Below, in pieces: positions 18,083-21,340 of a stretch of 32,080 bases of DNA; the stretch's first letter is position 1; each line of letters opens with the position of its first letter. The DNA is taken from positions 1-32,080 of the forward strand of contig JAJONO010000069.1 of NCBI GenBank assembly GCA_021323535.1, in the 5' to 3' direction. A program made the translations under genes and the position numbers. The notes beneath the pieces were generated by a model. The model was not told the DNA's origin, searched no databases, and saw nothing but the letters and a program-made list of their open reading frames with translations. This DNA is from Bacteroidota bacterium (lineage in GTDB: Bacteria > Bacteroidota > Bacteroidia > B-17B0 > Aurantibacillaceae).

Positions 18083-18157
18083 AGCCGCAGATTTCACAGA
18101 TTCATACAGATTGAAATCGAATGCTATAAATCCTGAAAATCCGCGAAATCTGTGGCT
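18083..18157. repeat. Interspersed inverted repeat (CAGATTTCACAGATT type)
   Basis: agccgcagatttcacagatt (18083-18102) and aatccgcgaaatctgtggct (18138-18157) are inverted copies differing at three of 20 positions. It lies between two same-strand genes. There is no T-run after the stem, so a terminator role is doubtful; the sequence reads like a dispersed repeat. Confidence 0.55.
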
Positions 18158-18185
18158 CAAAAAGGGGGAGATTTTGAACCGGGTA

Positions 18186-18216
18186 TTGTAATTAAAAACC
18201 ATTATACATACTTTAG
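18186..18216 (+). promoter_or_regulatory. Candidate promoter of pepP
   Basis: TTG at 18186-18188 and TACTTTAG at 18209-18216 are spaced 20 bases apart, close to the Bacteroidota -33/-7 layout, and end 21 bases before the ATG at 18238. The -7 differs from TAnnTTTG in its last bases. Confidence 0.3.
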
Positions 18217-18237
18217 TGTCTTCAAACAAAACACTTT

Positions 18238-19527
18238 ATGAAGTACCAAGCTATAGATCGTTCCCTGTTCATTGAGAACCGTAACAAATTCAAAAATCAT
18301 TTAAAACCAAATTCACTCGCTGTGTTTGTGAGCAATGATATTATGCCCACAAACGCCGATGGAAGCATGGGCTTTAAACAGAACAGCGATCTGTTTTATT
18401 TAACAGGGGTAGATCAGGAGGACACCATCCTTGTTATGTTCCCTGATGTAAAAGATGGTCGTCATAAAGAAATTTTATTTGTAAAAGAAACCAGCGAACT
18501 CATTGCCATATGGGAAGGCGCCAAGCTAAACAAAGAGCAGGCTACACAAGTAAGCGGTATTGAGCACGTATACTGGCACCATGAGTTTGAAAAGATCATG
18601 AAGCAGTTTCTGTTCCAGGCCGAATTTATTTACCTGAACAGCAACGAACACACGCGCGTTCACATTGATACCGAAACTGCCGAAGCGCGCTTCAACAAAT
18701 TGCTTATGGCAAAATATCCATTGCATAAATACGAACGCAGTGCGCCAATCATGCACAGGATCAGGGCCATTAAAAGCGCTTTTGAAATTGAGCTTATTCA
18801 ACAGGCTTGTGATATTACTGAAAAAGGCTTCCGCCGTTTATTATCTTATGTAAAAGCTGGTGTGTGGGAATATGAAATTGAAGCCGAACTCATTCACGAA
18901 TTTATTTGCAACCGCTCAAAAGGTTTTGCGTACGGACCAATCATTGCCAGTGGCTTTAACGCCTGCGTGCTTCACTATGTGGATAATAACAAGCAGTGTA
19001 AAGACGGCGATGTAATTCTTCTTGATGTGGCGGCTGAATATGCAAACTATGCCAGCGACATGACGCGTTGCATTCCCGTAAACGGAAAATTTAGCAAGAG
19101 GCAAAAAGAAGTTTATAATGCTGTATTAAGAGTGAAGGACGGCGCCACAAAATTATTAACGCCGGGGCAAACTTTCGATAAATACAATAAGGCTGTTGGG
19201 GAAATGATGACAGAAGAATTACTTCAGTTAGGATTATTGAAAAAGGACGAAGTAAAAAATCAGAATCCGGGATGGCCCGCGTATAAAAAATATTTTATGC
19301 ATGGCACCAGTCACTTCTTAGGATTAGATGTGCATGATGTTGGATTCTTTGCTGAGCCAATGCAGGCAGGAATGGTGTTTACCGTTGAACCAGGAATTTA
19401 TATCCGCGAAGAAAACCTTGGCATTCGTTTAGAGAATAATGTTCTTATTACTACTAGCGGACAAATTGACCTGATGAAAAATATACCAATTGCGGCCGAC
19501 GAGATTGAAGCGTTGATGAATAAATAA
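18238..19527 (+). CDS. pepP: Xaa-Pro aminopeptidase (aminopeptidase P family, M24B)
   Basis: The 429-residue protein has the PepP N-terminal domain (NDIMPTNADGSMGFKQNSDLFYLTGVDQEDTILV) and the pita-bread metallopeptidase fold with all five expected metal ligands visible: Asp263 (LLDVAAEY), Asp274 (SDMTRC), His359 (HGTSHFLG), Glu384 (VFTVEPGIYI) and Glu399 (GIRLENNVLI). It removes an N-terminal residue preceding proline from peptides, using two divalent metals, in the cytoplasm. No signal peptide. An intrinsic terminator-like hairpin begins 21 bases after its stop, inside the next gene. Length is normal for the family. Confidence 0.95.
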   Translation: MKYQAIDRSLFIENRNKFKNHLKPNSLAVFVSNDIMPTNADGSMGFKQNSDLFYLTGVDQEDTILVMFPDVKDGRHKEILFVKETSELIAIWEGAKLNKEQATQVSGIEHVYWHHEFEKIMKQFLFQAEFIYLNSNEHTRVHIDTETAEARFNKLLMAKYPLHKYERSAPIMHRIRAIKSAFEIELIQQACDITEKGFRRLLSYVKAGVWEYEIEAELIHEFICNRSKGFAYGPIIASGFNACVLHYVDNNKQCKDGDVILLDVAAEYANYASDMTRCIPVNGKFSKRQKEVYNAVLRVKDGATKLLTPGQTFDKYNKAVGEMMTEELLQLGLLKKDEVKNQNPGWPAYKKYFMHGTSHFLGLDVHDVGFFAEPMQAGMVFTVEPGIYIREENLGIRLENNVLITTSGQIDLMKNIPIAADEIEALMNK

Positions 19528-19537
19528 AACTGTTCTT

Positions 19538-20422
19538 ATGAATTTTTTAAAGCGGAACATATTATGGGTAGTAATGTGTTCCGCTTTTTTTATTGTGGGA
19601 TGTTCCAACAAGAAAGAAGAACAATTGCAGAGGGATCTGGATTTTATTGCGCAACAACAAGGTAAATTCTTAGCTATTGAAGACGGTCGTTTTTTGGAAA
19701 CGGAAGAAAAAATTAAAAAAATATATGCAGATGGTTTCCGTAAGCAGATTTTAATTAAAAAACTTAATCTCATAAACGAAAAAATTAGTTCTGCTTTTGT
19801 GTTTTATAAAAAGCCCGATATTTCTTTCAACGAAATGGATTCTATGCAGGCAAGTGTGTTAGGTGTTATACGAAAAGAACTAAGCGACACTTTACTCATT
19901 AAAAACCGCCTTGTGTTTCCGGAAGATGTAACCGCACTTATAAAACAAACCGACTCCTGCGTAAATTTAAGACGAATGGTTTCACTACCGCTGGAACTTG
20001 GGGCAAGAATAACAGAACTGATTGTTTTTAAAAATAAAATAATTGATCTCTTTGCCTCTTCCACCAAAAAAATAAGCAGTGATGAGCTCTGGGGGTGGAA
20101 CCCGTTTCACACCACAATTAAAATAAAAAATTACAGCGAAAACAAAGTTTCATATCTCGATATTGATTTTTCATTTTATGTTTCGAGGAATTCTGTAAAA
20201 TATCTTCAGAACCAAAAAGGGGATACCTTGCCGTTAAGTCTGATAAAAATTAAGTATGAAAGAGATTCAGCTTTTCTTAAACTAAACCTTTCGGATTTAA
20301 AGCCAGGGAAATATAAACTGAATGTGTGCACTCAATTAATTACACCGGAGATGGACAGGCGCTTAAACAAACTGGATTCTCCCGAATATTGCCAGCCTAT
20401 AGATTTCGAAGTTTTCAAATGA
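19538..20422 (+). CDS. Predicted lipoprotein of unknown function
   Basis: The 294-residue product begins with MNFLKRNILWVVMCSAFFIVGC, a lipoprotein signal with the lipobox IVGC and acylated Cys22. The mature part is rich in charged residues with helical stretches (25-120), and a beta-rich C-terminal region (TTIKIKNYSENKVSYLDIDFSF, LPLSLIKIKYERDSAFLKL, LKPGKYKLNVCTQL). I do not recognise a family. It follows pepP by 10 bases and its stop overlaps the hydrolase start (ATGA), so all three may be one operon. Its first codons form a perfect 11-bp hairpin followed by a T-run, described separately; ATG at 19574 is an alternative start but also lies in the hairpin. Confidence 0.8.
   Translation: MNFLKRNILWVVMCSAFFIVGCSNKKEEQLQRDLDFIAQQQGKFLAIEDGRFLETEEKIKKIYADGFRKQILIKKLNLINEKISSAFVFYKKPDISFNEMDSMQASVLGVIRKELSDTLLIKNRLVFPEDVTALIKQTDSCVNLRRMVSLPLELGARITELIVFKNKIIDLFASSTKKISSDELWGWNPFHTTIKIKNYSENKVSYLDIDFSFYVSRNSVKYLQNQKGDTLPLSLIKIKYERDSAFLKLNLSDLKPGKYKLNVCTQLITPEMDRRLNKLDSPEYCQPIDFEVFK
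19549..19591 (+). terminator. Intrinsic terminator embedded in the lipoprotein's first codons
   Basis: AAAGCGGAACA (19549-19559) and TGTTCCGCTTT (19577-19587) form an 11-bp perfect stem with a 17-base loop, directly followed by more T's (to 19591). The structure starts 21 bases after the pepP stop and lies across codons 4-18 of the downstream lipoprotein, inside its signal peptide. Translation of the lipoprotein could prevent the hairpin from forming. Confidence 0.75.
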
Positions 20423-21216
20423 TCAAAACCAGCCTCTATAAAAATGAAACAGTAACTTTTTCCGATACCGGAAAGGGTAGAACGGTGGTGTTACTTCACG
20501 GATATTTAGGCTCACATGAAATATGGAAATGGACAATGGAAGATCTTTCTAAATCATACCGCGTTATTGCTATTGATTTACCCGGACACGGAGGCACTTC
20601 CAATTTTGGTTACGCCCACAGCATGGACCTGATGGCTAAATGCGTAAAAGCCGTGATGGATCATTTGCGTTTAAAAAAATACGTCATTGTTGGTCACAGT
20701 ATGGGAGGATATGTTGCTCTTGCATTCGCCGATCTTTTTCCTGATCAGTTAAGAGGATTTTGTTTGTATCACAGCACCGCTTACGCCGACAGTGAAGAAA
20801 AAAAGAAGGACCGCGTTCGCGCTGTAAATGCTGTAAAAGCAAATCGCGGCATCTACACAAAAAATACGATCAGGAATTTATTCGCCACCAAAAATTTAAA
20901 ATATCTGAAGGATGAAGTTTCTTTCGCCTCTAAAATTGCAAAAGGAACAAGCCGGCAAGGAATTATTGCCGCGCTTTACGGCATGAAAGATCGTCCGAGA
21001 CGCGACATTATTTTAGGCCTCGTTGAATATCCTATCATGATGGTGATCGGCGAGCACGATAATATTTTACCTCACGAACAATTAATGGAACAGGCTCAAA
21101 CTATTCGTAATAAAACTGTTTTATATCTTGAGCATGATGGGCATTTTGGTTTCCTGGAATCGCCACGGCAAAGTAATAAGGAGTTGAGGAAGTTTTTGGC
21201 GAAATGCTTTAAGTAA
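20419..21216 (+). CDS. Alpha/beta-fold hydrolase
   Basis: The 265-residue protein starts at the ATG overlapping the previous stop (ATGA). An upstream in-frame ATG at 20326 was rejected because it lies inside the lipoprotein gene. Motifs: oxyanion region VVLLHGYLGSHEIW, IDLPGHGGTSN, nucleophile elbow VGHSMGGYVA (Ser94), Asp214 in GEHDNILP and His242 in LEHDGHFGFLE, a complete catalytic triad. It is probably a cytoplasmic esterase or related hydrolase; the substrate cannot be told from sequence. There is no signal peptide. Translational coupling to the unknown lipoprotein suggests a shared pathway. Confidence 0.9.
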   Translation: MIKTSLYKNETVTFSDTGKGRTVVLLHGYLGSHEIWKWTMEDLSKSYRVIAIDLPGHGGTSNFGYAHSMDLMAKCVKAVMDHLRLKKYVIVGHSMGGYVALAFADLFPDQLRGFCLYHSTAYADSEEKKKDRVRAVNAVKANRGIYTKNTIRNLFATKNLKYLKDEVSFASKIAKGTSRQGIIAALYGMKDRPRRDIILGLVEYPIMMVIGEHDNILPHEQLMEQAQTIRNKTVLYLEHDGHFGFLESPRQSNKELRKFLAKCFK

Positions 21217-21251: not shown

Positions 21252-21340
21252 TTTAACCACAAAGTTCCACTAAGAAATCACAAAGTTACGCAAAGCCTTT
21301 GTGTAACTTTGCGAATTTCTCTGTGTCACTTTGTGGTAAA
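21252..21340. repeat. Long imperfect palindrome (TTTAACCACAAAG...CTTTGTGGTAAA)
   Basis: Two 44-base arms, 21252-21295 and 21297-21340, are inverted copies with a few mismatches and one base gap in each, meeting at a single base. The arm is built from short repeated words such as CACAAAG, GCAAAG and GTTAC. It lies in the 285-base gap between the hydrolase and the next gene. No T-run follows. The same outer word TTTAACCACAAAG recurs at 23679. Confidence 0.75.

Follow-up and report, generated by a model that had tools for sequence, protein, structure and literature searches.

Background

The region of interest lies in a window of 32,080 nucleotides, contig JAJONO010000069.1 of the Bacteroidota assembly GCA_021323535.1 (Aurantibacillaceae). 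A T-tailed hairpin stands here directly behind a pepP-like aminopeptidase gene and at the same time within the first codons of the lipoprotein gene that follows (Table 1), which raises the question whether it ends the pepP message, regulates the gene it overlaps or merely reflects the composition of signal-peptide codons. What stands out at this locus is that an orphan gene was inserted and that its first codons are used twice. If termination occurs in vivo, a stretch of 39 bases would hold two codes that have nothing to do with each other, one closing the message of a gene and the other marking the following protein for export. The locus is a natural test, outside E. coli, of translation overriding termination just after a start codon and, again provided that termination occurs in vivo, would also be one of the fate of non-stop messages.

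Precedents for terminators within coding sequence are compared here on the basis of excerpts from the respective papers. In an E. coli three-gene operon, translation reduced the efficiency of a terminator located 30 bp into the middle ORF by only about 10%, the authors arguing that, over the first 100 bp, a ribosome has little chance of catching up with RNA polymerase; in the same construct, expression of the upstream gene was down by about half, which was ascribed to non-stop mRNA (PMC4824070, excerpts). The same excerpts give, for the distance of a terminator from an upstream stop codon, a termination efficiency (TE) of about 0.8 at 18 nt, of about 0.12 at 17 nt and a maximum beyond 27 nt. 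Translation-blocked termination is real in S. gallolyticus pil1 (PMC3894217, excerpts), and premature 3' ends within ORFs and 5' UTRs have been described for E. coli, e.g., the aceK-internal RNA with a predicted score of 5.9 (PMC7815308, excerpts). A word-based literature search of partial coverage returned no match for a terminator overlapping signal-peptide codons.

Anatomy and stability of the hairpin

The outer stem of the hairpin is perfect over 11 bp (arms AAAGCGGAACA/TGTTCCGCTTT) and is lengthened by six further pairs, two of them G-U, to a total of 17, five of which are G-C. The sequence-only reading had recognized the 11-bp stem with its T's as well as the distance of 21 bases from the pepP stop (stop at 19527, stem from 19549), and both observations hold, even though the actual stem is longer; its overlap with the lipoprotein codons stands likewise, but extends over codons 4-17 rather than 4-18. 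The tail 3' of the stem reads TTTTATTGTG, TTTTATT, and amounts to seven T in a row if the first three T of the U-tract, which are paired with AAA at the stem base, are included. Stem, tail and position are directly legible in the DNA.

Table 1 Features of the pepP-lipoprotein-hydrolase locus (positions in the window)
Feature	Position	Strand	Remarks
Candidate pepP promoter	18186..18216	+	TTG, 20 nt, TACTTTAG; one mismatch to -7 box TAnnTTTG; weak
pepP-like Xaa-Pro aminopeptidase gene	18238..19527	+	M24 aminopeptidase P (AMP_N + Peptidase_M24); Pfam PF05195, PF00557
Inserted segment	19528..20418	+	891 bp; carries hairpin and lipoprotein gene; absent in nine genomes with pepP and hydrolase adjacent
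Lipoprotein gene (apparent orphan)	19538..20422	+	294 aa; GC 34.5%
Lipoprotein ATG	19538..19540	+	10 nt after pepP stop, 8 nt before stem
Probable terminator hairpin	19549..19587	+	17 pairs, 5-nt loop; codons 4-17 of lipoprotein gene
U-tract	19585..19594	+	TTTTTTTATT; encodes part of hydrophobic core FFI
Alpha/beta hydrolase gene	20419..21216	+	Start overlaps lipoprotein stop (ATGA)

Folding of 19549-19594 yielded -22.5 kcal/mol (z -7.85), with none of 200 dinucleotide shuffles being as stable, and the hairpin in 91 nt of context yielded -27.3 kcal/mol (z -5.47). The structure is specific for the sense RNA: the opposite strand lacks both the T tail and the two inner G-U pairs and folds to -16.3 kcal/mol, as against -22.5 kcal/mol. 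The attributes of an intrinsic terminator, i.e., a stable G+C-containing stem, a U-rich tract directly after it and the usual spacing behind a gene, are thus all present. Spacing was judged against terminator-like intergenic hairpins of the same genome (<= -14; 108 in all, of which 92 lie within 300 nt behind a codirectional stop; overlapping sites unmerged), for which the local median is 22 nt (quartiles 17-31). Sense direction, tail and normal spacing all point to the earlier proposal that the hairpin occupies the place where a pepP terminator is expected, and it probably represents the intrinsic terminator of pepP.

In a survey of 1,083,198 bases of the same genome, window included, every hairpin ending at a T-run was scored against genes called by a home-made codon-score method. 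The hairpin ranked fifth in stability among 8018 T-tailed hairpins on both strands (1.08 Mb sampled). At <= -20 kcal/mol (n=20), 18 hairpins were intergenic and one was antisense, leaving the hairpin described here as the single one in sense orientation within a gene; at <= -18 kcal/mol (n=63), 50 were intergenic, eight antisense and five sense, and 12 sense hairpins within genes reached <= -16 kcal/mol in the sampled genome. Stable T-tailed hairpins within genes do occur, and this counts against the terminator reading. The plain number of terminator-like sites in 13 kb was not above chance (11 found vs 12.8 expected; simple consensus scan against shuffles) and therefore proves nothing; it is the strength of the hairpin that does, with 17 pairs as compared to eight in the next best site of these 13 kb.

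To what extent the protein sequence dictates the structure can be judged from 20,000 synonymous recodings of codons 1-24 of the lipoprotein gene using the genome's own codon usage. The observed value of -22.9 stands against a mean of -6.0 (sd 2.06, z -8.2); none of the recodings was as stable (best -18.7), and in none were all 17 positions paired. Rare codons are used in the two arms, namely CGG (5% of Arg) and TCC (10% of Ser). As no recoding reaches the observed stability, the protein sequence by itself does not make the hairpin, the codons being the pairing ones.

Insertion between pepP and the hydrolase gene

Orthologues of pepP were detected in 38 of the 39 other genomes of the genus (E 1e-60) and the hydrolase in 37 of them (E 1e-20). 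In nine of the 39 (G003, G014, G015, G016, G026, G027, G028, G029 and G036), both genes are adjacent at a distance of -1 to 38 nt with no gene between, while in the remaining ones they are located apart or on different contigs, or one of them was not found. In a pepP tree of 30 genomes, the own genome grouped with G016, G003 and G029 (support 99/98), all three of which display a pepP-hydrolase gap of 2-3 nt. Since the nearest relatives have both genes adjacent without the segment, the approximately 891 bp were inserted in the own lineage. The hairpin may have arrived together with the segment or may have grown afterwards.

The downstream neighbour of pepP has changed repeatedly within the genus, being the hydrolase gene in nine genomes and a PorP/SprF-like outer-membrane gene (by eye) in many others. 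Elsewhere in the genus, the hydrolase gene often has a TAnnTTTG-like box of its own before the ATG. At L009 (G007), a classical terminator (AAAAAAGCCGCAGAATTTTTTCTGCGGCTTTTTTG) is located about 25 nt behind pepP, and no hydrolase gene follows. In the window, the stretch behind the hydrolase gene (21253-21340) contains four copies of a ACCACAAAGT..CACAAAG-type inverted repeat in nested arrangement (0.09 expected), and Rfam matched rli61 there below its threshold; in L012, pepP is followed by a similar motif.

The N-terminus of the lipoprotein (MNFLKRNILWVVMCSAFFIVGC, followed by SNKKEE) is, by eye, a textbook lipoprotein signal peptide. The frame of 294 codons is intact, comprises a complete lipobox and passes the codon-usage filter of the gene finder; its GC content falls below the 40.9% of pepP and the hydrolase gene. 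Searches for relatives were carried out on overlapping sets and revealed homologues in 0 of 99 other genomes of relatives, 0 of 86 others of the order (at 0.001) and 0 of 394 others of the class, and nothing credible among genome contigs, viral contigs, plasmids and phages. Neither did Pfam contain a matching family at E 0.1, and the one NCBIfam match (E 0.069) is far below the family cut-off. At E 1, the order search gave weak matches in 14 other genomes plus one more in the own genome; L064, L066 and L076, the three inspected of 16 extra matches, proved to be response-regulator genes. The one match in the phylum (1 of 394 others; 65 residues, E 4.7e-4) has a frame broken by four stops and was judged to be chance. 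AlphaFold without alignment produced a pLDDT of 39.6 for the lipoprotein and of 65.6 for its C-terminal 119 residues, for which Foldseek returned general beta-sandwich folds only, none at E 0.001 or better. Judged from these searches, the lipoprotein appears to be an orphan with no credible relative. The hairpin is not part of a repeat or mobile terminator either: a single copy of its stem core AAGCGGAACA...TGTTCCGCTT is present in the genome, and GCGGAACA...TGTTCCGC was found in 4 of 40 genus genomes, in one place each and with unlike loops.

Promoters and start region

The promoter motif of Bacteroidota is TTG/TAnnTTTG. In the genome studied here, TAnnTTTG is 7-fold enriched upstream of divergent genes (2.24 vs 0.33 per kb), its exact form being present in just 53 of 144 divergent upstream regions. 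No exact box was found on the + strand between 18100 and 20425; given the 53 of 144, such absence is weak evidence, and a promoter inside pepP is conceivable. A sigma-70-type match (10/12) was detected within pepP at 19091-19119, which is at chance level there and stems from a scan with Bacteroidota outside its coverage. The opening energy around the lipoprotein start ranks at the 49th percentile of 796 genes, i.e., this start is as easily opened as that of a typical gene.

Proposed mechanism and alternative explanations

On balance, we favour, with some reservation, a working pepP terminator situated in the signal-peptide codons of an inserted orphan, with lipoprotein and hydrolase depending on low read-through. 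Most pepP transcripts would be ended by the hairpin at about 19588-19594, and the lipoprotein and hydrolase genes, joined by the ATGA overlap, would be expressed at low level from read-through transcripts; if the pepP promoter is the only one, both genes live on read-through. The latter might be aided by the ribosome that completes pepP translation 21 nt before the hairpin, since the excerpts on E. coli describe a ribosome on the upstream gene as repressing a close terminator (PMC4824070), which renders partial read-through at 21 nt plausible. Terminated pepP transcripts would include the start codon of the lipoprotein gene without any stop codon; ribosomes initiating on them would produce a non-stop signal peptide, about 19 residues long, and would have to be rescued. 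Termination, read-through and non-stop translation are steps that we infer. Several points argue against this reading. Terminator efficiency at 21 nt is uncertain in view of the repression near a translated stop in the E. coli excerpts (PMC4824070), and a strong terminator would cut off a hydrolase that is common to most of the genus. Moreover, T-tailed hairpins in sense orientation also exist inside other genes, with the plain count of terminator-like sites at chance, and the sigma-70-type match might provide a start within pepP.

The closest counterpart in the excerpts is the E. coli tR2 construct W48 (PMC4824070), in which the terminator likewise follows soon after the AUG of the middle ORF (about 30 bp there, 11 nt here) and the stop of the preceding gene lies shortly upstream, so that non-stop messages are expected. 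In contrast to W48, which was built, the locus studied here occurs in nature; the codons overlapping the hairpin encode a signal peptide, and they belong to an orphan gene that was inserted. As in the pil1 attenuator, a stem-loop terminator may end a transcript prematurely within coding sequence, with translation deciding on termination in pil1; however, pil1 involves a repeat-containing leader peptide and phase variation (PMC3894217, excerpts), whereas the terminator described here resides inside a full-length gene, where a sensing element was not found. The E. coli cases in the excerpts of PMC7815308 share with the present one that intrinsic termination within genes occurs naturally; those excerpts describe neither an overlap with signal-peptide codons nor an inserted orphan.

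The sequence-only reading had proposed that ribosomes translating from 19538 cover the stem, so that the lipoprotein and hydrolase genes would be transcribed only if translation starts well. Such ribosome-dependent attenuation would profit from a normally accessible ATG just upstream of the stem, from the ATGA coupling of lipoprotein to hydrolase and from the pil1 precedent in S. gallolyticus, where, according to the excerpts, translation of the leader peptide into the terminator raises transcription (PMC3894217). Distance and timing speak against it, however: RNA polymerase reaches the U-tract with just about 50 nt made downstream of the lipoprotein ATG, and the loss of only about 10% reported for the in-ORF terminator in the E. 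coli excerpts (PMC4824070) likewise disfavours the scheme. In addition, a rare-codon run, a pause site or a ligand-sensing leader were not identified; Rfam gave nothing at gathering thresholds between 17900 and 21600 (two sub-threshold matches, neither at the hairpin). Attenuation is regarded as distinctly unlikely. The minimum-energy fold of 91 nt retains the hairpin, with no competing fold seen. A different role, namely that of a structure in the 5' part of an mRNA starting just upstream of 19538, where it might act as a stabiliser, a processing site or a brake on translation, would agree with the location of the hairpin 11-49 nt past the lipoprotein ATG and with pairing specific to the sense RNA; yet a terminator requires just such a T-run adjoining the stem and just such a distance from pepP, and no exact TAnnTTTG box was found upstream, making this role very improbable.

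The hairpin could also be an ordinary pepP terminator next to a hardly expressed or unexpressed ORF, i.e., a decaying or recently captured orphan, in which case the overlap would be costless. The gene being an orphan in every search, its deviating GC content and its placement behind a strong terminator, with no exact promoter box found at 18100-20425, are in line with such a silent frame, whereas the intact 294 codons, the complete lipobox, the ATGA junction with the hydrolase gene and the passed codon-usage filter are not; overall, it is considered unlikely. Chance pairing of signal-peptide codons, finally, may draw on the fact that these A/T-rich codons form T-tailed hairpins more often than other codons, the synonymous null already giving 17 of 298 signal-peptide genes of the own genome at -8 kcal/mol. 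Against it stand the 20,000 recodings, none of which attained the observed stability, and the rare CGG and TCC in the arms; as a full explanation, chance is refuted by this null unless the codon usage applied misdescribes the lipoprotein gene, and it is deemed extremely unlikely.

Terminators read as signal peptides

Irrespective of its present function, the overlap poses the question how an export signal and a terminator came to share codons. A terminator, consisting of an A-rich start, a G+C stem and a T-run, tends in a suitable frame to spell a basic and then a hydrophobic stretch. Open frames running through intergenic terminators were compared with shuffles by means of a crude home-made signal-peptide rule, ignoring the need for a start codon. 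Signal-like frames amounted to 32 of 125 in the own genome (25.6% vs 11.4% in shuffles; 0/100 shuffles as high) and to 20 of 64 in G030 (31% vs 12.8%; 0/100 as high), while the 11 of 47 in G006 were not significant (23% vs 16.5%; 18/100 as high). Thus, signal-peptide-like terminator frames are about 2.3 times as frequent as in shuffles in two of three genomes. Antisense frames were signal-like in 4-6% of cases (6/110 in the own genome, 2/54 in G030 and 2/36 in G006). By this home-made rule, terminators are pre-shaped for signal peptides in two of the three genomes, which makes a terminator-born signal peptide a reasonable, unproven reading of the locus. That the lipoprotein in fact obtained its signal peptide in this manner, a captured or new frame gaining export via a pre-existing terminator with both functions kept, is possible but doubtful. 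If true, a targeting peptide would have been overprinted on an RNA signal. Signal-like terminator frames offer a simple, testable route for orphan genes to become secreted.

Hairpins at other gene starts

Four genomes with 1443 genes were scanned for further T-tailed hairpins at gene starts, applying a crude signal-peptide rule and a synonymous-shuffle null. Among 804 gene starts of the own genome, hairpins of <= -16 were present in 5 of 298 signal-peptide genes (0.31 expected) and in 0 of 506 other genes (0.17 expected), a picture that remained the same in a run with 25 nt of upstream context. Three relatives' genomes displayed no excess at signal-peptide gene starts (1/242 vs 0.87 expected), the sample of G016 comprising just 62 genes in 294 kb due to poor performance of the gene finder there. 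With the excess confined to the own genome of the four scanned, a genus-wide class of terminators in signal-peptide codons is not supported.

The strongest start hairpins besides the one behind pepP belong to L112 5995-6762 and L135 1212-1832, both on the - strand. In L112, the hairpin (-19.1) is located 45 nt behind a codirectional gene of 1225 aa that resembles methionine synthase by eye, and the hairpin loop contains the start codon of a signal-peptide gene. In L135, the hairpin (-18.9) is located 28 nt behind a large codirectional gene, alpha-2-macroglobulin-like by eye, and extends across the start codon of a lipoprotein-like gene. Both loci resemble the pepP-lipoprotein locus in that a strong T-tailed hairpin overlaps the start of a signal-peptide gene behind a codirectional gene; they differ in that the stem flanks or includes the ATG and may also gate translation, and in that some relatives exist. 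For the L112 gene, one of four relatives was tested (G002) and had no hairpin. Three of five relatives were tested for the L135 gene, with no clear hairpin in G029 (-8.4, 65/300 of the null as stable) and G002 (-6.9, 26/300), while the relative in G003 (L146) carries an unlike strong hairpin at the same place (-18.4; 2/300 of the null as stable).
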